In this document: positions 22,346 to 34,129 of the stretch, in pieces
How positions within the stretch are numbered: position 1 is the first letter of the stretch
Layout: each line of letters begins with the position of its first letter
From: an uncultured Lachnospiraceae bacterium
Lineage (GTDB): Bacteria; Bacillota; Clostridia; Lachnospirales; Lachnospiraceae
Reading direction: 5' to 3'
Assembly (NCBI GenBank): GCA_946616835.1
Contig: CAMOJK010000015.1
Coordinates: 1-40,127 of the forward strand
Length of the DNA stretch: 40,127 nucleotides
The notes under the pieces: generated by a model
Told to the model about the DNA's origin: nothing
The model's input: only the letters and a program-made list of their open reading frames with translations
The model's database searches: none
Translations under genes and position numbers: made by a program

Positions 22346-24043
22346 TTATTTCAGTAAGAGTTTTTTGAAATCTTCTTCCGGCAGAGGCTTGGAGAAATAG
22401 TAGCCCTGTATCATGTCACAGTCAAAATCCTGAAGGAGCTTAAGCTGCTCCTTTGTCTCCACGCCTTCTGCAACAACCTTCATTCCTAACTCTTTTGCCA
22501 TCTGTGCCATATGCCGTACAATGATCATGGACTTTTCGGAGGTGGACAGCTTTGAGATAAAGCTTATATCGATTTTTACAACATCTATGGACATGTCCTG
22601 TAAAGCCTTCAGGGAGGAATAACCGATACCGAAATCATCCATCTCTATGATGAAGCCTGCTTTTTTTAGGCTTTCTACTGCTTCATAAGAGCGCTGGATG
22701 TCTTCGACACGGGCACTTTCCGTTATCTCAAGCCTAAGCTCGTCTGATGTAATACCGTAAGCTGACATCAGTTTTTTCAGATCCCTGCTTAGGGAAGGCT
22801 GGAAAAGATTTACCCTCGAAACATTTACGCTGATTGGAATACGATTGTCACAGGTTTCACGGATATCCTTCAAAAGCCTGCAGGTAGATTCCCACACATA
22901 GTGGTCAAGCTTGGCAATCATGCCGTTTTTCTCAAAGAGGGGAATGAACTTGTCGGGAGGGAGCAATCCCTGGGAAGGATGCTTCCACCTGACAAGAGCC
23001 TCAGCTGTAACCACCTTGCCTGTTCGCATATCGTAGATAGGCTGAATATGTATACAGAAATCGCCGCGTTTTATTGCGTCCTCTGTATCATTTACAAGCT
23101 CTAGGTCAAGCAGGATCTTATTTTTTACTTCGCTGTTGTATTCGATATGACGGCTTAAAAGGTTGCCTTTGATGGTCTGGATGACCATGCTCATACGATC
23201 GAGAATGAGTTTGACGGGGAGATTCAGTTCATCAATTTCATATATGCAGCTGTAGAAAATGATCTTGTATCCGTTTATCAGAGCGGCTGCGTGTTTTTCC
23301 AGATCTTCAACGATATTTAAAGGCTTGAACTTGTCGGTAGGGAAAAGGGCAACATAAACATCATTATAAATTCTTGCACATATTCCGCTGCCTCCAAGTG
23401 TTGATTTTAAATATTCGGCGCAGGCTTTTAAAACTTCCTTCGATTTATCGTTACCGAAAAGCTCTGCCACTGCCTTGAAATGGTCTATGTCCAGAAGGAG
23501 CAGGCTGTACTGTGTGTCAGGATTGCCCTGCAGGATTACAGATGCGTTGTTACAGAAACCGAATTCTGACAGAATGCCGGTCTCGGAGTCAGTTTCAGCA
23601 AGCTTGCGCATACGCTCATAGCTTACTTTTTCAATTTCTGCCTCTACCATCTGCTTTTGAAGCTCCCTGGTGGTAATGACATTATTAACTCTGTGTTTGG
23701 CAATTTCTACATTATATGGCTTTGTTATGAAATCCGCGGCTCCCTTGGACAGGGCGCGAAGCTCGTTTTCTTCCTGACCGAATTGGGTATTTACTACGAC
23801 AGGTATTTTACGGAGGTCCTTATCGCTGTTTATGAAATCAAGAAGCTGGAAACCGTCCACATGCGGCATGTTAAGATCTAGAATTATGATAGCAAACCTG
23901 ACACGCTTTAAGAGTTCTTTTGCCTCCAGGCCGTCAGCAGCTTCGACGATGGAAAAATCATCCTCAAATATGCCGCGCAGGATCGCACGGTTAGTCTTGC
24001 TGTCGTCAACTAACAGCATGTATTTCTTATCAGTCCGGTCCAT
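22346..24043 (-). CDS. Response regulator: REC, degenerate GGDEF, EAL (c-di-GMP phosphodiesterase)
   Basis: A 565-residue cytoplasmic signalling protein. The receiver domain (about 8-125) has the acidic pair Asp13/Asp14, phospho-acceptor Asp56 (IILDLNMP), Thr86 and Lys108. A helical linker leads to a GGDEF-fold domain (about 150-310) whose signature is IYNDVY (225-230), so diguanylate cyclase activity is not expected. The EAL domain (about 320-560) keeps the expected catalytic set: AEALVRW (Glu348), Asn407 (NVS), Glu439 (LEITES), Asp469/Asp470 (DDFGIGYSS), Lys490, Glu526 (AEGVET) and Gln546. It should hydrolyse c-di-GMP under phosphorylation control. The frame opens at 24091, but GGGGGTG 8 nt before ATG 24043 supports the shorter start. 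No partner kinase is adjacent. Confidence 0.93.
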   Translation of the reverse strand: MDRTDKKYMLLVDDSKTNRAILRGIFEDDFSIVEAADGLEAKELLKRVRFAIIILDLNMPHVDGFQLLDFINSDKDLRKIPVVVNTQFGQEENELRALSKGAADFITKPYNVEIAKHRVNNVITTRELQKQMVEAEIEKVSYERMRKLAETDSETGILSEFGFCNNASVILQGNPDTQYSLLLLDIDHFKAVAELFGNDKSKEVLKACAEYLKSTLGGSGICARIYNDVYVALFPTDKFKPLNIVEDLEKHAAALINGYKIIFYSCIYEIDELNLPVKLILDRMSMVIQTIKGNLLSRHIEYNSEVKNKILLDLELVNDTEDAIKRGDFCIHIQPIYDMRTGKVVTAEALVRWKHPSQGLLPPDKFIPLFEKNGMIAKLDHYVWESTCRLLKDIRETCDNRIPISVNVSRVNLFQPSLSRDLKKLMSAYGITSDELRLEITESARVEDIQRSYEAVESLKKAGFIIEMDDFGIGYSSLKALQDMSIDVVKIDISFISKLSTSEKSMIIVRHMAQMAKELGMKVVAEGVETKEQLKLLQDFDCDMIQGYYFSKPLPEEDFKKLLLK

Positions 24044-24150
24044 AAAGTACACCCCCATGATGAATTGTAAATCTGCTGTAAGGCCGTACAAACGAAGTCA
24101 CGGTCAGAAACAGACAGCAGACAGACTCCTAAAAATACAATACATCATAA

Positions 24151-24269: not shown

Positions 24270-24281
24270 CTCATTTGTTCT

Positions 24282-24355
24282 CGAGGTGTGGCCCAGTTTG
24301 GTGGGGCACCTGGTTTGGGACCAGGGGGTCGCAGGTTCGAATCCTGTCACCTCGA
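24282..24355 (+). tRNA. tRNA-Pro (anticodon TGG)
   Basis: The acceptor stem is cgaggtg with cacctcg, followed by discriminator A. The anticodon stem is cctgg/ccagg around the loop tttggga, anticodon TGG. The T arm is gcagg-ttcgaat-cctgt. The D arm is gccc/gggc. CCA is not encoded. Single gene with its own promoter and terminator. Confidence 0.96.
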
Positions 24356-24360
24356 TAGGT

Positions 24361-24398
24361 CCAACTCCTTTGTAAATACTGGGGTTGGGCTTATTTTT
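24361..24398 (+). terminator. Terminator of tRNA-Pro
   Basis: ccaactcc (24361-24368) pairs with ggggttgg (24381-24388), 8 bp with one G-U, and is followed by a T-rich run ending in ttttttt. Confidence 0.8.
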
Positions 24399-24420
24399 TT
24401 GTTTGACATATCTTTGATAC

Positions 24421-24585
24421 TTAAGCAATTCTGAGTTCTTTCTTATGAGATTTACCTTTTATATTTACCTCATAGAGAGCCCTGTTATAGTGCCCAGCCA
24501 CTTCCAATGTGCTATGGCTTGCAAGATGTTGTATAATGTATTCCTGAAATCCAATTTCATACAATTTTGTTATAGCAAAAAACGA
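24421..24585 (-). pseudogene. Remnant of a tyrosine recombinase (C-terminal end)
   Basis: The minus-strand frame ending at TAA 24423-24421 encodes about 50 residues, including LYEIGFQEYIIQHLASHS and then TLEVAGHYNRALYEV. This fits the C-terminus of phage-type integrases: L-x2-G-x4-IQ, a GHS-like box read as SHS, and a tyrosine nine residues after that histidine. The frame is closed upstream by a stop near 24588, and no integrase N-terminus or core is present, so it is a fragment. It points toward tRNA-Pro, a usual arrangement for elements that integrate at tRNA 3' ends. I infer the scar of a lost mobile element. It is too short for certainty. Confidence 0.55.
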
Positions 24586-24612
24586 ATCTTATGGTTTTAA
24601 GGAGAGGATGTT

Positions 24613-26106
24613 ATGGATTTAAGGGGCAGAACCAAACGCTTGAGACTGTTGTCTTTTATATTAGCTGCAATATTTATGCTGGCAGGATGTGACGCAGGTG
24701 GTGACACTGCTTCAAATGAGGAAGGGCCAATAGAGCTTATCTGGTGGACATACACGCCTGACGGAACAGCACCTGATGCACTTGAAGAGGTTATGGCTAA
24801 AGCAAATGAGATGTCTGCTGAAAAAATAGGCGTTACGGTAAAAATGATCTATAAGACAGATGACCAGTTCGAACTGGATCTTTCCACCGGCGAGTATTAC
24901 GATATGACATTCAGCTGTGACTGGTGTAACGATTTTGATACGAATGCGTCAAATGGCTACTACTATGATATAACTGAACTTGTTCAGACGGAAACTCCGG
25001 AATTATATTCCGGCGTTGATCCCTGGTGGGAGGTAGGTACGCTGAATGACAGGATTTATGGTGTTCCTATGCTAAAGGACCTGGGAGCCGAAGTTTTCTT
25101 CCGTATGAACAGCGATTATTTTGAACAGGAGAAGGGGCTTACGCTTCCTGATGAAATGGAATTTGAGGATTTAGAGCCGTATCTTCAGATGTGGAAGGAA
25201 GACCATCCGTCTGAATATCCCTTTTATCTGCCGTCGGCGGGAGTGAGCGGTTTGTATCAGGTACATGAAAGGATTGTCGGAAAATATCTTGTTATTCCCT
25301 ACAGTAAAGCAGGTACGCCGGATGGCACAAAGATAATTCCTGTCTTTGATGATGAAGAATATATAGGCATGCTCCGTAAACTTCACGAATGGTATGAAAA
25401 AGGTTATATAAATCCTGATGCGGCTACGACTGACGAGGTGCCCTATTCAATAAAAACGCCTGTCAGGACAGGTACAGCCTGGACCGGCTTTAAGGGATGG
25501 TCCGATCCGGAATCTATAGGTTTTAATGTGAAGCTTGTCAGATTTATAGGCCCCAATATGTCGAGGGCTACCCAGCAGGGATCGCTTATAGCGATAAATG
25601 CGGCAGCTTCGGAGGAAAAAGCCAAGGCATGTCTTAAATATATGCAGCTGCTTTATACAGACAGGGAGTTCCGTGATACCTTGGCATACGGAATAGAAGG
25701 GAAACATTTTAATTACTATGAAGGTACTGTTATCCGTACTGATGAGGGGAGCGAACATTATATGCAGGATAATTATATTACAGGACCTGCCATATCTGCG
25801 TCTGTTGTTTCCGCAGGCAAGGATAATCTTGCTGATCCTGATCAGTGGAAACATGTATATGAAGGATATCAGGGTGTTCAGATGAGTGATACTCAGGGCT
25901 TCAGCTTTGACCCGACGCCTGTGGAGGCTGAAATTGCAGCACTTGATGCTATATGGGACAGTTATATGTCGGAGTTTGTTACCGGTACTGCAGACACAGA
26001 CCGGGAAATGGAACTGATCCGTGATCAGATGGAGAAGGCAGGTCTGGAAAAGGTTCGCGAGGAAGCCCAGAGACAGCTGGATGAATATTTAAGTAATCAC
26101 GGGTGA
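24613..26106 (+). CDS. Sugar ABC transporter substrate-binding lipoprotein
   Basis: A 497-residue extracellular solute-binding protein of the type paired with LplB/YtcP permeases, binding an oligosaccharide outside the membrane. The signal peptide (basic RTKRLR, then a hydrophobic core) ends in lipobox LAGC with Cys26. The mature part starts with IELIWWTYTPDG and contains YDMTFSCDWCNDF, YYDITELV and DRIYGVPMLKD, as expected for this family. The C-terminal DSYMSEFVTGTADTDREMELIRDQMEKAG is typical. AAGGAGAGG precedes the ATG. It is the first gene of an operon with an ABC protein and two permeases; the next start follows after 3 bp. The sugar is not identifiable by eye. Confidence 0.92.
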   Translation: MDLRGRTKRLRLLSFILAAIFMLAGCDAGGDTASNEEGPIELIWWTYTPDGTAPDALEEVMAKANEMSAEKIGVTVKMIYKTDDQFELDLSTGEYYDMTFSCDWCNDFDTNASNGYYYDITELVQTETPELYSGVDPWWEVGTLNDRIYGVPMLKDLGAEVFFRMNSDYFEQEKGLTLPDEMEFEDLEPYLQMWKEDHPSEYPFYLPSAGVSGLYQVHERIVGKYLVIPYSKAGTPDGTKIIPVFDDEEYIGMLRKLHEWYEKGYINPDAATTDEVPYSIKTPVRTGTAWTGFKGWSDPESIGFNVKLVRFIGPNMSRATQQGSLIAINAAASEEKAKACLKYMQLLYTDREFRDTLAYGIEGKHFNYYEGTVIRTDEGSEHYMQDNYITGPAISASVVSAGKDNLADPDQWKHVYEGYQGVQMSDTQGFSFDPTPVEAEIAALDAIWDSYMSEFVTGTADTDREMELIRDQMEKAGLEKVREEAQRQLDEYLSNHG

Positions 26107-26109
26107 TCT

Positions 26110-28212
26110 ATGAAGATAAAAGGTGTGCTCACAAATGAATCCATCGACAGGTCAATAGAGAGCGTTCTTTCGGATCTTGAGAAACTTGGAGTATTGTCTG
26201 ATGATATGATCCGTTTTCAGCTTACGATAGAGGATATACTCCTGGACTACCATTACAAGTTAGGGGAGGATGTTCCTTTTTGTGTCGTAGTAAAAAAGAA
26301 GCGTACAGGGGTAACTGTCGAACTTAGAGTTAAGGGAGAAAGCTATGATGCCATAGGACTTACGGATTCGCTTATTTTACTCAAGTCTGTTCATGGATGG
26401 ACGTCTGCACCGTCGTGGCACTATGATAAAGGGAAAAATGTTATCAGATATGATTTCCATCTCAGGAATTCCCTGAAGGATAATCTTGGTTTTACCTGGA
26501 AATATGCAGGCCCCCATAAAAAATATCTTTTTCTTGCACTCTTTCTGCAGCTTACAGGTGTAGGGCTTATGATACTGGCACCTATTCTTGGTGCAAAGAT
26601 CATAGTGAACCTTACCAGTGAGGCGCTGGATCAGCTTCTGCTTACAGCATTAATGTTATTTGTGGTCAATATAGTATCTACCTCTGTGCTGTTAGCTACT
26701 AACTGGGCACATAATGTGCTTTACAATAAGACCTTAAATGCCCTGGAAATAGACATATCCGATAAAGTGTTAAAGATAAAGAATTCAGCCATTGACGAGC
26801 ATGGCACAGGTCTTTTCATTCAGCGTCTTACCGTTGATACCAATAATCTGGCAACCGCATTTTCAACTTTTGCCGACAACCTTTCAAATACAGTTCAGTA
26901 TTTGGGCATTCTGATTGCGATGCTTGTAATAAATCCTGTTGTTTTTCTGGTCACTGTCATACTTCTTGGAATCCAGATATGGCTTGAAATAAGGCGTGAG
27001 AAGACAAATGAAAAAAATGGCCGTTTATACCGGAATGCAAATGAGAGATATACAGGACTTGTTGGTGAGATAGTTCGCGGTTCAAAGGATATCAAGCTGA
27101 TACATGCCGAGAAGGAATTGAAGAGTGAGCTGAATCAGAGAATAATAAAAGCAAACTCCTCCAGAATGTATCTGGATGCGATCAACAGAATATTCAGGCT
27201 GGTGGGGGGAGGACTGCGTGAGCTTGCCGCACTGCTGTTTATAATCCTTCTGATGTGCCTGTTAAAGAATCATTCAATTGAGGTGGCCACCGCACTGATA
27301 CTTTATAATTACTATACAAATCTGGGAACACCGGCCATTACGCTGCTTGGCGTTATAATGGATTTCTTTGCTGATTTTAACCTGTCCTGTGAGAGGCTTC
27401 ATGCTTTAACCGATGATCATTTATTCCCGAAGGAGTCCTTTGGAGAGCTTTCAAAGAAGGATATTAAGGGCAAGGTGTCCCTGGAAAAAGTCTGCTTTTC
27501 ATATAATGTTTCAAAGCTTAACAGTTCAACAAGGTGGGTACTGTATGACACGAACCTGACTATAAATGCCGGCGAGACAGTGGCTTTGGTTGGAAGAAGT
27601 GGATCCGGTAAAACCACTATATTCAATCTGTTATCCAAGCTATACCAGCCCTTTAGTGGTAAAGTCATGCTGGATGATATAGATATACGGGAGCTTGATA
27701 GTGACAGCCTGCGTGGTTCTATGTCGGTGGTTACTCAGTCGCCCTATATATTCCATATGTCGATCCGAGATAATCTGAAGCTTGCTAAACCGGATATGAC
27801 TGATGAGGAGATGAAGACCGTAGCTAAGCAGGCATGTATAGATGAGGATATTGAGGCTATGCCGGAGGGCTATGACACTATAGTGGGTGAAGGCGGAGTC
27901 AACCTGTCAGGCGGTCAGAGGCAAAGACTTGCTATAGCCAGAGGGCTGCTTCATGATTCTAAGATACTGCTTTTGGATGAAGCAACCAGTGCCCTTGATA
28001 ATATAACGCAGGCAAAGATCAGAGAAACCCTTCAGAGAATACATGGAAAATGTACTGTCATAATGATCGCACACCGTTTGTCAACGGTTATCGGTGCTGA
28101 TCGTATACTTTATATTAAAGATGGCAAAATTATTGCTGATGGCAGGCATCATGCGCTGATAGAATCATGCCCGGAATATAGAGAACTATATGAAACAGAA
28201 GTGTCGATATAA
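26110..28212 (+). CDS. Exporter-type ABC transporter (membrane domain plus ATPase) with extra N-terminal domain
   Basis: A 700-residue half-transporter. Residues ~135-430 form a six-helix type IV (exporter-like) ABC membrane domain. Residues ~450-700 are the ATPase: Walker A GRSGSGKTT (495-503), signature LSGGQRQR (599-606), Walker B ILLLDEATSALD (619-630), H-loop His655. Residues 1-130 are an additional soluble domain (MIRFQLTIEDILLDYHYKLG, then VKKKRTGVTVELRVKGESYD) with weak resemblance to a GHKL/anti-sigma-like ATPase fold in which the Glu and Asn of the N-box would both be Asp (Asp42, Asp46). It lies between the binding protein and the sugar permeases and overlaps the next gene by 23 bp. 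Sugar importers of this class normally use a separate ATPase encoded elsewhere, so its role here is unclear. Confidence 0.9.
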   Translation: MKIKGVLTNESIDRSIESVLSDLEKLGVLSDDMIRFQLTIEDILLDYHYKLGEDVPFCVVVKKKRTGVTVELRVKGESYDAIGLTDSLILLKSVHGWTSAPSWHYDKGKNVIRYDFHLRNSLKDNLGFTWKYAGPHKKYLFLALFLQLTGVGLMILAPILGAKIIVNLTSEALDQLLLTALMLFVVNIVSTSVLLATNWAHNVLYNKTLNALEIDISDKVLKIKNSAIDEHGTGLFIQRLTVDTNNLATAFSTFADNLSNTVQYLGILIAMLVINPVVFLVTVILLGIQIWLEIRREKTNEKNGRLYRNANERYTGLVGEIVRGSKDIKLIHAEKELKSELNQRIIKANSSRMYLDAINRIFRLVGGGLRELAALLFIILLMCLLKNHSIEVATALILYNYYTNLGTPAITLLGVIMDFFADFNLSCERLHALTDDHLFPKESFGELSKKDIKGKVSLEKVCFSYNVSKLNSSTRWVLYDTNLTINAGETVALVGRSGSGKTTIFNLLSKLYQPFSGKVMLDDIDIRELDSDSLRGSMSVVTQSPYIFHMSIRDNLKLAKPDMTDEEMKTVAKQACIDEDIEAMPEGYDTIVGEGGVNLSGGQRQRLAIARGLLHDSKILLLDEATSALDNITQAKIRETLQRIHGKCTVIMIAHRLSTVIGADRILYIKDGKIIADGRHHALIESCPEYRELYETEVSI

Positions 28213-29146
28213 AAATAAAAAAAACAGGTTTGGCGAGAAGAACTTATGCTTAACCCTCTTATCAGCGCCGACACTTATATGGTATCTGGTTTTTTGTTAT
28301 TTTCCGCTGTTTGGAATAATCATGGCATTCAAGCGTTACAGACTTGTTCCTGGCAAAGGATTTTTCTACAGTCTTATCTATGGAAGTGATTGGGTAGGTT
28401 TTGATAATTTCCGTTTTCTTTTCTTAAATCCCGAAATAGGAAGAGTAGTCAGGAACACTGTTCTGTATAATCTTGTATTTCTTATTTTGGAAACGGTCAT
28501 TCCGGTAGTACTTGCCATATGGATGTCTTATATTCATTCTAAGATAGTCAGGACCTTTGCGCAGATTTCTCTGCTGCTGCCTTATTTTATGTCCTGGATC
28601 ATAGTCAGCTATCTGGTATATGCTTTTTTATCACCTGACCGGGGCACTGTAAACGCACTTCTTGAAAAACTGGATATGACGGGGATAAGCTTTTACCAGC
28701 GGCCTGAGTTCTGGCCGTTTATTCTTTGTTTTGTTCAGATATGGAAGTCCTCCGGATATATCATGATGTTATATTATGCCAGGATGGTTACGATAGATAG
28801 TGAACTGTTTGATGCGGCGGCAGTGGACGGTGCATCTGTAACCCGGGTTATAAGGCATATAATCCTGCCGGAACTAAAAAGTGTTATAGTGGTTATGACA
28901 CTGCTTAACCTTGGGCATTTGTTTTCTACGGATTTTGGCCTTTTTTACCAGGTAACAAGAAATGCCGGTTCGATTCTTTCTTCTACTGAAACCATAGATG
29001 TATTTATCTATAAGGCTCTTATGGAACAGTCTAATTATGGCTTTAGTGCTGCTGCAAGTCTGATTCAGAATGGGATAGGCTGTATAATCCTCATTTTTGC
29101 AAATCAGATATTAAAACGAACGGGGACTGAGGGAAGGATTCTATGA
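28190..29146 (+). CDS. Sugar ABC transporter permease, LplB/UgpA type
   Basis: A 318-residue membrane permease of the binding-protein-dependent (MetI-fold) family. A Lys-rich cytoplasmic N-terminus precedes the first helix (LLSAPTLIWYLVFCYFPLFGIIMAFKRY), the LplB-type pattern. The EAA loop that contacts the ATPase is seen as ELFDAAAVDGASVTRVIRHI followed by ILPEL (about residues 206-228). Six helices are visible. Its start lies 23 bp inside the upstream ABC gene, and its stop overlaps the next start (ATGA), so all four genes are translationally coupled. It would form a heterodimer with the next permease. Confidence 0.9.
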   Translation: MKQKCRYKNKKNRFGEKNLCLTLLSAPTLIWYLVFCYFPLFGIIMAFKRYRLVPGKGFFYSLIYGSDWVGFDNFRFLFLNPEIGRVVRNTVLYNLVFLILETVIPVVLAIWMSYIHSKIVRTFAQISLLLPYFMSWIIVSYLVYAFLSPDRGTVNALLEKLDMTGISFYQRPEFWPFILCFVQIWKSSGYIMMLYYARMVTIDSELFDAAAVDGASVTRVIRHIILPELKSVIVVMTLLNLGHLFSTDFGLFYQVTRNAGSILSSTETIDVFIYKALMEQSNYGFSAAASLIQNGIGCIILIFANQILKRTGTEGRIL

Positions 29147-30060
29147 TAAAGAAAAATAAAGACGAAGACAACTATTATATCCGGGGGCTTGGAAGGGGAT
29201 CTGATACTGTACTTAGTGCATTGCTTTTCATTATATCTTTTATATCGATCCTTCCGGTAATACTTATTATTATCGTGTCATTTTCCTCGGAGGATTCTGT
29301 GGTAGCGAATGGATACAGCTTCTTTCCTGACAAGTGGTCCCTTGAGGCCTATAGTTATCTGTCGGGAAATATAAAGACTATCATGATGTCCTTTGGAGTA
29401 ACTGCTGCAGTTACTCTTGCGGGAACTTTTCTGTCACTGTTTTTTATAAGCACCATGGCATATGCACTTAGCCAGAAGGATTTTCATTTCAACAGGATAT
29501 TTACCTATGTAGTTATGATCCCTGTCTTTTTTGGCGGTGGGGTAGCAGCTTCTTATGCTGTGAATACCCAGATGCTTGGAATGAAGAATACTATATTTGC
29601 ACTTATTCTTCCGCCGGCATGTTCCAGCTGGTATATCATAGTAATGAGGACATATTTTTTAAATAATATTCCTCCGGAGATACTTGAGGCGGCCAGGCTG
29701 GACGGGGCATCAACCTTCAGAATTTTCAGGAAGTTTGTACTTCCGCTGTCAAAGCCGATCCTGATAACAGTAGGTCTTTTTGAAGCGTTTTCATATTGGA
29801 ATATCTGGTATGAAAATCTGTTATATACGGATTCAAATCACAGTAGGTTATACACGCTTCAGTATGTTCTATACAACATGCAGAAGAATGCATCTTTTAT
29901 ATCTTCAAATGACAGTATTACCGGAGCTGTGGTTACACGGGTTCCCACAGAATCCTTCAGGATGGCACTTGTCGTCGTTATAATACTTCCGATCCTTGTG
30001 ACTTATCCGCTTTTTCAGAGGTATTTTAAGAAAGGACTCTTATCCGGCTCAGGAAAATAA
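29143..30060 (+). CDS. Sugar ABC transporter permease, YtcP/UgpE type
   Basis: A 305-residue membrane permease, partner of the preceding gene. The typical features are the first helix with ISFISILPVILIIIVSFSSE, the segment NGYSFFPDKWSLEAYSYL after it, and the EAA loop PPEILEAARLDGASTFRIFRKF at about residues 177-198. The C-terminal FQRYFKKGLLSGSGK is a hallmark of the YtcP/LplC group. The start overlaps the upstream stop by 4 bp. It ends the operon; no intrinsic terminator is evident before the regulatory region of the next gene. No MsmX-like ATPase follows. Confidence 0.92.
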   Translation: MIKKNKDEDNYYIRGLGRGSDTVLSALLFIISFISILPVILIIIVSFSSEDSVVANGYSFFPDKWSLEAYSYLSGNIKTIMMSFGVTAAVTLAGTFLSLFFISTMAYALSQKDFHFNRIFTYVVMIPVFFGGGVAASYAVNTQMLGMKNTIFALILPPACSSWYIIVMRTYFLNNIPPEILEAARLDGASTFRIFRKFVLPLSKPILITVGLFEAFSYWNIWYENLLYTDSNHSRLYTLQYVLYNMQKNASFISSNDSITGAVVTRVPTESFRMALVVVIILPILVTYPLFQRYFKKGLLSGSGK

Positions 30061-30098
30061 ATTATCTTTTCTTTGTGTATAATTCCATACAAATTTGA

Positions 30099-30126
30099 TA
30101 TAATTTATACTGTATAGTATACAGTA
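30099..30126 (+). promoter_or_regulatory. -10 box with adjacent perfect 19-bp palindrome (operator candidate)
   Basis: TATAAT at 30099-30104 is followed 4 bp later by TACTGTATA-G-TATACAGTA (30108-30126), with perfect 9-bp arms around one central base. It overlaps the expected transcription start of the LacI-EAL gene, a classical repressor position. No consensus -35 is present. The leader from here to the ATG at 30237 is about 110 nt. Confidence 0.7.
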
Positions 30127-30236
30127 GAGCTGTTCATTAATATCCGGGGCAAATTGCCTGGGGGCAGGCGATAGGAAAGTGACAACAGAGAGAAGTTATA
30201 ATGCCTGCGTACATGTAGTCTTTATTGGAGAAATTT

Positions 30237-33200
30237 ATGGGTTTGAATTCAGGGGGAAAGAAGAGACTGGCGCTTCTGGTCGGACAGCCGGAAGAGTATT
30301 GTCAGGAAGAGTTTATCAAGGGCTTTTCTGAAAGGATGTTCAAGGAAAATTTTGATATATGTGTATTTGCCATGTTTCGAAAATTCCAGGATTCACCCAA
30401 TCGCGAAAAAGGTGAGAGCAATATTTATTCCCTTATCGATCTTGGTTCTTTTGACGGAATATGCATTATGGCAGATTCCATCCAGACCCCCGGTGTAGTG
30501 GAATCACTGACTGAAACTTTAAAAAAAGAATATAAGGGTAAGGTACTTTTCGTTGAAAAAGAAGTGGAAGGTTTCCCTTATGTCCTTCAGGATAATTATA
30601 CCCCTATTAAAAAAATGATATCCCACCTGATAGAGAAGCATGGCTATAAAGATATAGCCTATCTCACAGGTAAGTCCTGGCATGAACATTCCAAGAAGCG
30701 TTTGCAGGCGTATAGGGACTGTATGGCAGAACATGGTCTTGAAGTTCGTGAAGATCGTGTTTTTTATGGTGATTTCTGGTATACCAGTGGCGAGAATACT
30801 GCTGAAAAACTCATAAGGTCGGGAAATCTGCCGGAAGCAGTTGCCTGTGCAAATGACTGTATGGCTTTAGGTCTCGCAAAAACATTTATAGCTCGTGGGA
30901 TCAGAGTTCCTGAAGATGTAGCTGTAATAGGTTATGACTGTAATGATGAAGGTATGCATGCACCTATTCCTATTACCAGTGCACCGCTTCCTTTTGAGAG
31001 CTTCGGAAAATATTCCGCAGAAACTATGCTGGGACTTATGGAAGGAAAAGAAATACAGCCATTTGAAGCAGATGTGGAAATGTTTATCGGAAAGACCTGC
31101 GGCTGCAATGGCGACAGCATGAAGGCTGTTTATGAAGTCCGGTCAGAATGGGATACTGCTATTTCCGAAAATTCCTTCAGCTCAGTTTTCAGCGGATTTA
31201 ATGAAGATATGATGTTGCAGACTGCCTTCCGCGGATTACTTACGACGATTTATTCCTATGTTTACCAGATAGGAAATTATGATACATTTACCATTTGCCT
31301 TAATGAAGGCTGGATGATGCCGAGGACCACCTATACGGCAAGATTGTTGCGGGCTATAGACTGCTGCCGTACTGATGATGGCCGGGACAGTGTGGATCTG
31401 GATGATTTTTTTGACAAATCCGTTATGCTGCCTGCACTTCTTGATAAATGTGACAAACCCAGGCTGTTTTATTTCCTTCCGCTGTTTTTTGAGGATGAGA
31501 GTCTTGGTTATGCAGCTTTGGGCTTTGTTGACAGATACTGCCCATTCTCAGCAGGTGTCAGGGTGTGGCTGAGGTCTGTTATGTTTGGCCTGGAGGCTTT
31601 CAGACGATCCAGCGAGCTTGACAGCAGTCGCAAGCTGGTTGAAATGGGAACTAATTATGACGCACTGACAGGCCTTCCGAATTATAAGGGCATGCTCAGT
31701 GATGTAGATTCCATTATGGAGAGGATACGAGAGGCGGGAGGATATGTTGATGTTGTTGCATATGACATCCGGGGACTTGCGCAGTTTAATGACCTGAGGG
31801 GAAGGGATGCCGGAGATCGCGTGATCGTGGGTATATCCACGACACTTCAGTCGGTTTTTAACAGCCCGGAGTGTTACAGCTGTTATACCGGCAGTGGAGA
31901 GTTTGTGGTGATGTATTTCTCTTCGATTGAAAACGGCGAGACATTCAAGCGATACTGTGAGGAATTCAAGGAGGCAATGAAGATATTCAATGCCGATCCC
32001 GATGTAATATCCCAGACGGAACTGTATCATGGACATGAAAGCGGACATCCCGAGAATGCGGCAGCATTAGAGCGTATAGTCAATGTTGCCATAAGCAGGA
32101 AGAACGGTTTTAAGTATGGCTCACGCTCCAAGAAGGATTATTCCGTATTGGATGAGGATGAAGTAAAGCTTGCCGGCAGGGTAATGGAGGTGCTGGATAA
32201 TAATAAGTTCAATTATCATTTCCAGCCTATTATAAGCGCGGCAAATGGCGATATATATGCCTATGAGGCACTTATGAGGCCGGATACGGAGCCCTATATC
32301 GCACCACCTGTTATACTAAAATATGCTGATTTCCTTGACAGGCTTTATGATGTGGAAAAGGCAACCTTTGTCAATGTACTTAACCGTCTGGCAAAGGAAC
32401 AGGTATTCATGGAGAATAACCGCAAGGTATTTATAAATTCCATTCCCGGAGAACATTTAAAGGGAGATGAGCTTGATTTTGTAGAATCTTCCATAAGGAA
32501 GTTTGCGGGGAATATTGTCATAGAACTTACTGAACAGACAGAGCTTTCTGACGAGGAGCTGGCAGAGGTTAAGGCTGTATATGCCAATATGGGAGCTGGA
32601 ACAGCAGTTGATGATTATGGCACGGGATATTCCAATGTGGTAAATCTCTTAAGGTATATGCCTGATTATGTGAAGATAGACCGCTCTCTGATAACCGATA
32701 TACAGAGTAGTCCCCAGAAGCAGCATTTCGTAAAGGATATAATCAGTTTCTCACATGATAATGGCATTCTGGCTCTGGCAGAAGGCGTAGAGACACATGA
32801 TGAACTAAAGACTGTCATAAAGCTTGGTGCAGATCTTATACAGGGGTATTATACGGCAAGACCTTCAGCAACGCTGCTGGCAGATACGCCTGATGATATT
32901 AGGCGCGAGATTGTGGAGCTTAAGAAGAGTGCACTGTCATCTTCTGTGGGAGTGTATATACCGGGAAGGGACGGACGAGTGCTTCTGTCCAAACTGGAGG
33001 AAGAAGGCACGGAAAAGATTTCTGTCAGCAGAAAGGAAATGACATTCATAGACTTTACCGTTGCAGGAGCCCCCGGAATAAAGAGTCCTGTCACAATAGA
33101 TGTGCTTAACGGATACCATGGAACCATTACTCTTGAAAATTGCGGGCTGGGATTTTCAGAGTCGGAGGCAAACGGCATATCTGTGGCAGAAGGCTGTGCA

Positions 33201-33785
33201 GTGACACTGGTGCTTACAGGCTATAATTACCTGAAGGGCGGAATATATGTGGCAAAAGGCGGCTCGCTCAATATCGAAGGCGATGGTACTCTTGAAATTC
33301 AGGGCAAATATGATGACTGTTTTGGAATAGGTGCTGGTACCGACAGGGAGTGCGGCTCTGTAGTGATAGACACAGCCGGTGTCATATTGGTCAGGTCAAA
33401 AAGCAGCAGTGGGGCAGCTATAGGCATAGGTGCCGGTCTCGGTGCTGAAAAACTTGAAATAATGCATGGAAAGTATGAAATGCAGATCAAGGGGGAAAGT
33501 GTCGTGGCAATTGGCGCACTGTCCTCGGATGATCAGAAGATTAAGCTGTCGGAATGCAGCATAAATTTGGAACTGCAGGGTGAAAAGCTTTGCGGTATAG
33601 GCTGCCTGTCAGGAAGGGCCGAAATGGAATTTAATAATTCGGACATCAGTTTTACGGCTTGCGGTGACGGTGTGCTCATGGGCTCAATGGATGGTTTATC
33701 TGAACTTTCAGAGAACGGATGCAGCATAGCACATACCGTTGAATGCGGCGATGTCGTGATATACGGTGTTGCGGGAAGGGAATAA
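30237..33785 (+). CDS. LacI-type sensor, degenerate GGDEF, EAL phosphodiesterase, beta-helix-like C-terminus
   Basis: A 1182-residue protein without signal peptide or membrane helix. Residues ~8-290 form a LacI-type sugar-sensing domain (KRLALLVGQ, GYKDIAYLTGK, RVPEDVAVIGYDCND) that lacks the DNA-binding helix-turn-helix. A ~170-residue helical or GAF-like linker follows. The GGDEF-fold domain (~466-620) reads GSGEF (552-556), and the position that would support cyclase activity is weakened. The EAL domain (~645-880) keeps Glu677 (YEALMRP), Asn734, Glu763, Asp792/Asp793 (VDDYGTGYSN), Lys813, Glu849 and Gln869. Residues ~905-1182 repeat IG(A/I)G-type rungs about 30 residues apart, as in beta-helix folds. 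I infer sugar-controlled c-di-GMP hydrolysis. GGAG 6 nt upstream favours ATG 30237 over the in-frame TTG at 30225. It follows the sugar transporter operon. Confidence 0.92.
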   Translation: MGLNSGGKKRLALLVGQPEEYCQEEFIKGFSERMFKENFDICVFAMFRKFQDSPNREKGESNIYSLIDLGSFDGICIMADSIQTPGVVESLTETLKKEYKGKVLFVEKEVEGFPYVLQDNYTPIKKMISHLIEKHGYKDIAYLTGKSWHEHSKKRLQAYRDCMAEHGLEVREDRVFYGDFWYTSGENTAEKLIRSGNLPEAVACANDCMALGLAKTFIARGIRVPEDVAVIGYDCNDEGMHAPIPITSAPLPFESFGKYSAETMLGLMEGKEIQPFEADVEMFIGKTCGCNGDSMKAVYEVRSEWDTAISENSFSSVFSGFNEDMMLQTAFRGLLTTIYSYVYQIGNYDTFTICLNEGWMMPRTTYTARLLRAIDCCRTDDGRDSVDLDDFFDKSVMLPALLDKCDKPRLFYFLPLFFEDESLGYAALGFVDRYCPFSAGVRVWLRSVMFGLEAFRRSSELDSSRKLVEMGTNYDALTGLPNYKGMLSDVDSIMERIREAGGYVDVVAYDIRGLAQFNDLRGRDAGDRVIVGISTTLQSVFNSPECYSCYTGSGEFVVMYFSSIENGETFKRYCEEFKEAMKIFNADPDVISQTELYHGHESGHPENAAALERIVNVAISRKNGFKYGSRSKKDYSVLDEDEVKLAGRVMEVLDNNKFNYHFQPIISAANGDIYAYEALMRPDTEPYIAPPVILKYADFLDRLYDVEKATFVNVLNRLAKEQVFMENNRKVFINSIPGEHLKGDELDFVESSIRKFAGNIVIELTEQTELSDEELAEVKAVYANMGAGTAVDDYGTGYSNVVNLLRYMPDYVKIDRSLITDIQSSPQKQHFVKDIISFSHDNGILALAEGVETHDELKTVIKLGADLIQGYYTARPSATLLADTPDDIRREIVELKKSALSSSVGVYIPGRDGRVLLSKLEEEGTEKISVSRKEMTFIDFTVAGAPGIKSPVTIDVLNGYHGTITLENCGLGFSESEANGISVAEGCAVTLVLTGYNYLKGGIYVAKGGSLNIEGDGTLEIQGKYDDCFGIGAGTDRECGSVVIDTAGVILVRSKSSSGAAIGIGAGLGAEKLEIMHGKYEMQIKGESVVAIGALSSDDQKIKLSECSINLELQGEKLCGIGCLSGRAEMEFNNSDISFTACGDGVLMGSMDGLSELSENGCSIAHTVECGDVVIYGVAGRE

Positions 33786-33799
33786 AGCATCATAACAGC

Positions 33800-34129
33800 A
33801 TGGAATGCAGGGAGTATCACAAATACTTTAATTCTTTTATAAATGGTGAATTGGACTATAAGGAAACCAGGATGCTTCTGCTTCATATAAGTCAGTGCAG
33901 GGACTGTGATGCAGACCTGCACAGTCAGTATATTATGATAAGCGGTTTGCGCAAGATAGATCTGAAAGAGGGAGATCCCCCTATACCAGAATATGAAGAA
34001 CTTATAAAGAAAGAAACAAAGCGGTGCCGGCGGGAAGGTATCATCCGCCGGGCATTTGTTGAGCTGTCTATTCTGGCACTTATTGTTTCGGTTATATTTG
34101 TATTGAAAGGAATATTATGGATAAATTAG
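33800..34129 (+). CDS. Small membrane protein with anti-sigma-like zinc-binding motif
   Basis: A 109-residue protein. Residues ~1-38 carry a zf-HC2-like pattern (MECREYHKYFNSFINGELDYKE, then H-I-S-Q-C-R-D-C), as at the N-terminus of ZAS anti-sigma factors. A charged linker follows and a C-terminal membrane helix (FVELSILALIVSVIFVLKGI) ends at the membrane with almost no extracellular part. No sigma factor gene is adjacent, so the anti-sigma role is only suggested. The start is uncertain: the frame opens at 33743 inside the EAL gene, and no clear ribosome site precedes the ATG at 33800. It may be translated by coupling to the stop 15 bp upstream. It overlaps polA by 13 bp. Confidence 0.7.
   Translation: MECREYHKYFNSFINGELDYKETRMLLLHISQCRDCDADLHSQYIMISGLRKIDLKEGDPPIPEYEELIKKETKRCRREGIIRRAFVELSILALIVSVIFVLKGILWIN

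Follow-up and report, generated by a model that had tools for sequence, protein, structure and literature searches.

The gene at 30237..33785 of the window (the whole stretch of 40,127 nucleotides that was analyzed) appears to encode a soluble c-di-GMP phosphodiesterase that belongs to a single group of EAL proteins, the hallmark of which would be a beta-helix attached immediately after the EAL domain. In our preferred reading, to which we give slightly less than an even chance, the enzyme is tuned by a ligand bound to its LacI-type domain, the beta-helix tail is a platform for docking or self-association, and the neighboring transporter is there by chance. Descriptions of c-di-GMP enzymes usually center on their N-terminal sensors; in this protein, the accessory part that is conserved is C-terminal, sits on the catalytic domain and is modeled with the fold of a carbohydrate-binding adhesin. 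The features of the gene and its surroundings are as follows.

24281..24356, forward strand: tRNA-Pro(TGG), an insertion site beside the transporter block.
24613..30060, forward strand: transporter block (DUF3502 substrate-binding protein, ABC exporter-type protein, two permeases), not a conserved neighbor.
30237..33785, forward strand: the whole gene for the EAL/beta-helix protein, 1182 aa from ATG 30237.
30237..31079, forward strand: LacI/periplasmic-binding-protein-like ligand domain without HTH (Pfam Peripla_BP_3 at residues 134-279, Peripla_BP_1 at 94-270).
31125..31634, forward strand: middle region of ~170 aa without a Pfam match, also present in LacI-bearing relatives and GAF-like by eye only.
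31653..32045, forward strand: degenerate GGDEF domain (GSGEF), from Pfam and its motif.
32187..32864, forward strand: EAL phosphodiesterase domain, from Pfam, with its catalytic positions in place.
32928..33782, forward strand: predicted adhesin-type beta-helix tail, residues ~902-1186, from an AlphaFold model, fold comparison and alignment.

The gene occupies a single open frame running from a TTG at 30225 to 33785. Since GGAG is found at 30227-30230, six bases ahead of the ATG at 30237, this ATG, the start chosen in the preliminary description, was preferred over the in-frame upstream TTG; residue numbers count from TTG 30225 and are converted to ATG-based numbering by subtracting 4. At its 3' end, the gene shares 43 bases with an open reading frame for a zf-HC2 zinc-finger protein (window 33743-34126), which is followed by polA. 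The source organism is a rumen-type bacterium, and orthologous genes were found in the Lachnospiraceae records UBA4364, RGIG9225 (a water-deer rumen metagenome) and AB2028.

Pfam recovered Peripla_BP_3 (E 1.3e-25; 90.9 bits vs. a cut-off of 26.5), GGDEF at residues 477-607 (E 1.6e-10) and EAL (PF00563) at residues 655-880 (E 2.2e-47; 161.8 bits vs. a curated cut-off of 31.3), with no match in the tail after residue 880. No LacI HTH model was among the Pfam matches, and the protein begins at its ligand domain without the N-terminal HTH of a LacI-type transcription factor. Despite its Pfam match, the GGDEF domain reads GSGEF at 556 and lacks the GGDEF motif (PF00990) that we take to mark active diguanylate cyclases, so the domain is degenerate, in line with the preliminary description of it as dead. 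It is probably regulatory, and it is dispensable: 23 of 60 relatives in the genus set, including the same-genome paralogue, are missing it (two of the 23 are N-terminally cut). The EAL positions E681, N738, E767, D796, D797, K817, E853, and Q873, presumably catalytic or metal-binding, are all in place; these eight are invariant in 53 relatives and occupy the same columns in 30 diverse rows, and L087 has EGL instead of EAL with the glutamate retained. Since no 19-residue window reached a hydropathy of 1.6, the threshold used for transmembrane-like stretches (maximum, 1.31), the protein was taken as soluble. Pfam, alignments and hydropathy thus agree with the earlier picture of a soluble chain that joins a LacI-type ligand domain without HTH to an EAL domain with intact catalytic residues, and as a phosphodiesterase the protein should hydrolyze c-di-GMP. 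Known GGDEF-EAL phosphodiesterases (PF00563), such as DosP and the "Motility regulator" 4rnh, share the EAL fold, the catalytic positions and a GGDEF domain in front; in contrast to these, the proteins of the window's group carry a beta-helix directly behind the EAL domain, and such EALs cluster in trees.

The C-terminal part had been read as a beta-helix from its regularly spaced IG turns. An AlphaFold model of the tail (pLDDT 88.4, pTM 0.87) was beta throughout with one short helix and aligned with solved beta-helix proteins, confirming this reading. The turns also stand where they had been placed, and their glycines are near-invariant: in the alignment of 91 tails, glycine occupies positions 1036, 1069, 1097 and 1126 in 87/87, 85/86, 86/86 and 86/86 of the filled rows, respectively. 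The closest solved fold was that of Cthe_2159 (PDB 4phb; PF14262), a carbohydrate-binding beta-helix with 16% identity to the tail, followed by the L. reuteri SRRPs (PDB 5ny0 and 5nxk; rmsd 4.5 and 3.6), which, unlike the tail, are surface adhesins. The model supports a tail fold of the type found on secreted carbohydrate-binding proteins and adhesins. However, although the tail shares the beta-helix arrangement of the Cthe_2159 family, it falls below the Pfam cut-off and is fused to an intracellular enzyme. Only one of 58 scanned tails gave a Cthe_2159 match, at E 0.14, with none for the window tail; the L139 tail scored 13.5 bits vs. a cut-off of 25.8. A tail profile compared with solved structures gave a best E of 0.58. 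Bactofilin (PF04519) likewise matched one of 58 tails below its cut-off (E 0.74), and bactofilins were absent among the 50 fold matches listed, which excludes nothing. The secreted-looking GIG-repeat proteins L090, L138 and L229 gave weak profile or BLAST matches and share, by eye, a GxN...GGIxV...GxGxLxI...GIG pattern with the tail; they differ in having no EAL domain and, by eye, secretion-type N-termini, and L090 also has Flg_new and Big_2. L229:1760-9184 is a 2474-aa secreted-looking protein with three separate stretches that match the tail profile.

These closest folds bring in the main rival to docking, namely that the tail is an intracellular carbohydrate sensor for glycogen or nascent membrane polysaccharide, which would tie the EAL domain to carbon storage or matrix building. 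We consider this unlikely. Carbohydrate binding has been reported for these folds: the passages of PMC9210967 concerned call Cthe_2159 carbohydrate binding and give pectic acid binding for the SRRP comparison. Against it, the scanned tails stay below the Cthe_2159 cut-off, and tryptophan makes up 0.12% of the tails vs. 0.47% of six secreted relatives.

The tail was searched for first by single sequence and then by profile in wider genome sets. The single sequence matched 33 of 35 genomes of the window's genus (its own included), one of 25 other genomes of the family and none of 38 others of the order, while the profile matched 21 of 299 genomes in the family set (two weakly), 14 of 392 in the order set (five weakly), 17 of 391 in the class set (four weakly), and two of 299 in the phylum set, namely the window's own genome and one of its family. 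The fetched loci leave out the single-sequence matches G007:C185, G022:C39 and G017:C106 and the order and class profile matches in G660, G722, G858, G915, G963, G506 and G977; a weak family match in G368 did not recur in the ORF scan of its locus, L137. In the fetched loci, 96 ORFs matched the tail profile at E 1e-5 or better, and in 91 of these 10-21 residues separate the end of an EAL domain from the tail match. The other five have no EAL domain, score 37-53 bits (vs. 80-457 for EAL-plus-tail proteins) and begin like secreted proteins, as does L090, which was found through BLAST. The fusion of an EAL domain to a beta-helix tail, first noticed in a single protein, thus recurs in 91. Since so many proteins share it and tail dN/dS is low in orthologues (see below), it is not a chance event. 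Phages searched with the window tail and plasmids searched with the paralogue's tail gave no match.

The region ahead of the EAL domain was found to vary. Among 84 N-termini scanned (this number excludes L068, which contains N, and six contig-end fragments), Peripla_BP_3 was present in 55, GGDEF in 50, GNAT in one and a 7TM region in one; L140, cut by a contig end, has GNAT too. L126, L127, L218 and L227, proteins of ~690 aa, have just 79-82 residues ahead of EAL, which speaks for carbohydrate sensing since the tail is the obvious candidate sensor in such proteins. Considering that the EAL-tail pair recurs behind many different sensors, the tail seems to belong to the enzyme rather than to the sugar sensor, and tail and EAL domain are inherited together with the N-terminal part being exchanged. 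The tail had earlier been proposed as a scaffold or a second carbohydrate sensor; the second part of this proposal is weakened, since the tail accompanies EAL across many exchanges of the sensor and few of its polar or aromatic positions are conserved. Transmembrane-like stretches were found in five of the 91 proteins, in all five before the EAL domain (L132 has at least one further hydrophobic window within the tail). Since no membrane-crossing-like stretch lies between EAL and tail, the tail should lie on the cytoplasmic side with the EAL domain. Cysteine content was rejected as proof of cytoplasmic residence, there being no clear difference between the 91 tails (2.44%) and the six secreted relatives (1.68%).

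Since the proteins above had been chosen by their tails, a profile of the EAL domain by itself was run on 299 family genomes, which matching handles suggest are the same as those of the tail-profile family set; no more than 9 candidates were scored in any one genome, so the resulting counts are lower bounds. At least 32 EALs scored 307 bits or more, of which 25 are tailed, six are tail-less and one is cut by a contig end. At least 19 further EALs, at 207-250 bits, had no tail match, and in the 10 of them that were fetched the protein stops no more than 31 residues after the EAL domain. The window's own genome holds 19 EAL matches, one of them a fragment; two are tailed and the remaining 16 tail-less. 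In a first EAL tree (115 rows), the tailed rows of which were picked by tail, 91 tailed proteins and one tail-less protein (L213) fell in one clade (100/99). A second tree of 99 rows, thinned by shared 5-mers from 126 and with L205_3419, L212, L214, L215 and L216 dropped as aberrant, needed six changes of tail label, at least three of them forced by supported branches; its bootstraps are not fully settled, and L272, one of the group's seven rows without a tail, is truncated at a contig end. A single gain of the tail followed by several losses fits as the simplest reading, though there may have been more than one gain.

Constraint was measured in the four orthologous genes (six pairs). Values of dN/dS were 0.017-0.035 for EAL, 0.039-0.108 for LacI and 0.055-0.089 for the tail, with dS near saturation in five of the six pairs (the exception being AB2028 vs. 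RGIG9225), and the C-terminal half of the tail was the fastest-evolving of the parts compared by dN in five of six pairs. Among 85 complete tails, which also leave out the six contig-end fragments, 73 measure 349-388 aa, five are longer and seven are 300 aa or less; the short ones are those of the window and its three orthologues (298-299 aa) and of L040, L046 and L050 (133-176 aa). The window tail is shorter than 78 of the 85 (complete relatives and orthologues counted), and since it and its three orthologues are among the seven short tails, its lineage has a shortened tail form. Such shortening, together with the fast C-terminal half and the six tail-less members, could indicate an evolutionary passenger, i.e., a stable fold that was acquired in a single fusion, now contributes little and is degenerating in the window's lineage. 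We regard this as quite improbable, considering the low dN/dS of the tail, its narrow length range, and its retention in 25 of at least 32 group members across many genera.

Among the columns occupied in the window tail, those in which one residue reaches 80% or more of the 91 tails are Gly, Leu, Ile, Val or Pro, with the exception of N1001 (82/90) and E895 (80/91), the latter at the EAL-tail junction; another 78 columns are filled in at least 60 rows, and a single one of these (Gly, 81/82) reaches 80%. By residue class, position 911 is aromatic in 91/91 tails, 927 and 943 are acidic in 72/91 and 78/91, respectively, 929 is aromatic in 73/91 (Thr in the window) and 1033 is aromatic in 66/87. 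Conserved acidic or aromatic positions are thus few, and most class-conserved tail positions are in the cap next to the EAL domain. The reading of the tail as a working lyase, epimerase or hydrolase was rejected, since no catalytic polar set is conserved over the 91 tails. Some class conservation is what a carbohydrate sensor would show; however, no acidic cluster or aromatic platform is evident in the same 91 tails. Conservation of 911-943 and E895 in the cap, the short junction, and retention of the cap part in the shortest tails would also suit an intramolecular regulator, in which the N-terminal cap packs on the EAL domain to transmit or block activity and the rest stabilizes it. This is a slim prospect, since the full length of most tails is more than a cap needs.

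Docking or self-association is suggested by the persistence of the tail while sensors are exchanged, by its defined length and by the absence, on the helix body, of a polar site common to the tails. In such a mechanism, binding of a small ligand, most likely a sugar or a related metabolite, to the LacI-type domain would change the dimer via the middle region and degenerate GGDEF domain, thereby tuning c-di-GMP hydrolysis. The tail, a less certain step than ligand binding, might place the enzyme at a partner or cluster it, so that c-di-GMP would be removed locally, with the conserved cap perhaps forming the connection to EAL. Several observations count against docking: positions 911, 929, 943 and 1033 might form a patch for binding or touch the EAL domain, six group members have no tail, L040, L046 and L050 keep only 133-176 aa of it, and no recurrent partner gene was recognized among the neighbors of tailed loci. 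The largest neighbor group there is an SDR-like gene (by eye) that accompanies 18 loci, in most cases on the opposite strand; it is read as local synteny, 17 of the 18 being in the window's genus.

The EAL/beta-helix fusion was not found in published literature (open-licence PMC papers). In the passages concerned, PMC3584217, PMC11264596, PMC2847200 and PMC7824862 mention beta-helices and EAL or GGDEF domains in separate proteins. According to a review, LacI/PBP-like domains, known from LacI regulators too, occur in c-di-GMP proteins and may bind sugars (PMC8846402); the window protein has this ligand domain in common with them, but a beta-helix tail is not mentioned in that part of the paper. 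The parts are thus already known, and the fusion is the element not found in print. It is conceivable, if rather doubtful, that these proteins form a new class of phosphodiesterase in which an adhesin fold inside the cell is a sensor of stored or nascent polysaccharide or a platform for clustering, destroying c-di-GMP where polysaccharide is made or stored. If the tail positions the enzyme, it offers a handle on local c-di-GMP removal in these Clostridia; intracellular polysaccharide sensing, if true, would be the more remarkable finding. In members that have hardly any sequence ahead of EAL, the question can be put directly to small proteins.

The preliminary description had also tied the gene to the adjacent sugar transporter, with sugar from an LplB/YtcP transporter binding the LacI domain and gating EAL, and the tail acting as scaffold or second sugar sensor. 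The spacing is indeed operon-like, the YtcP frame ending 165 bases before TTG 30225, and in one other genus two EAL-plus-tail genes lie 133-173 bases behind LplB-YtcP-SBP homologues. However, none of the three orthologous loci has the transporter block. In AB2028 (L144) and RGIG9225 (L143), 24356-30204 is absent, the match stopping at 24355 and resuming at 30205, and the gene follows tRNA-Pro by ~110 bases. In UBA4364, integrase-like and phage-like genes (by eye, ~33 kb) follow tRNA-Pro, and the last 20 tRNA bases are repeated at the far end, just ahead of the gene, as expected for integration of a prophage at this site. UBA4364 matches the window from 30048 on, which takes in the final 13 bases of the YtcP frame and the spacer; since the match begins inside the frame, the transporter may once have been present there and been lost without loss of the gene. 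In the flanks examined for the 91 tailed proteins, LplB, YtcP and SBP homologues were found only for the window, L126 and L227 (the latter two in the one other genus). Transporter synteny was therefore rejected, the block being missing at orthologous loci and tRNA-Pro being an insertion hotspot, and the transporter appears to be a chance neighbor at a tRNA insertion site. The model of transporter-fed gating is accordingly very unlikely, the least probable of the readings weighed here.

Across the window and loci L142-L144, L235 and L236, the tRNA-Pro(TGG) site is followed by the transporter block (in the window), the ~33-kb prophage (in UBA4364), or neither (in AB2028 and RGIG9225). The 700-aa ABC exporter-type protein of the block (window 26110-28209; MsbA-like profile match) lies between the substrate-binding protein and the LplB/YtcP-type permeases. 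A tail-less response-regulator GGDEF-EAL protein is encoded at window 22349-24091 and is the divergent neighbor of the gene in AB2028 and RGIG9225. In L238 and L239 (one genus), EAL-plus-tail genes without a separate sensor lie behind LplB-YtcP-SBP homologues and a gene that resembles, by eye, one for glycerol kinase.
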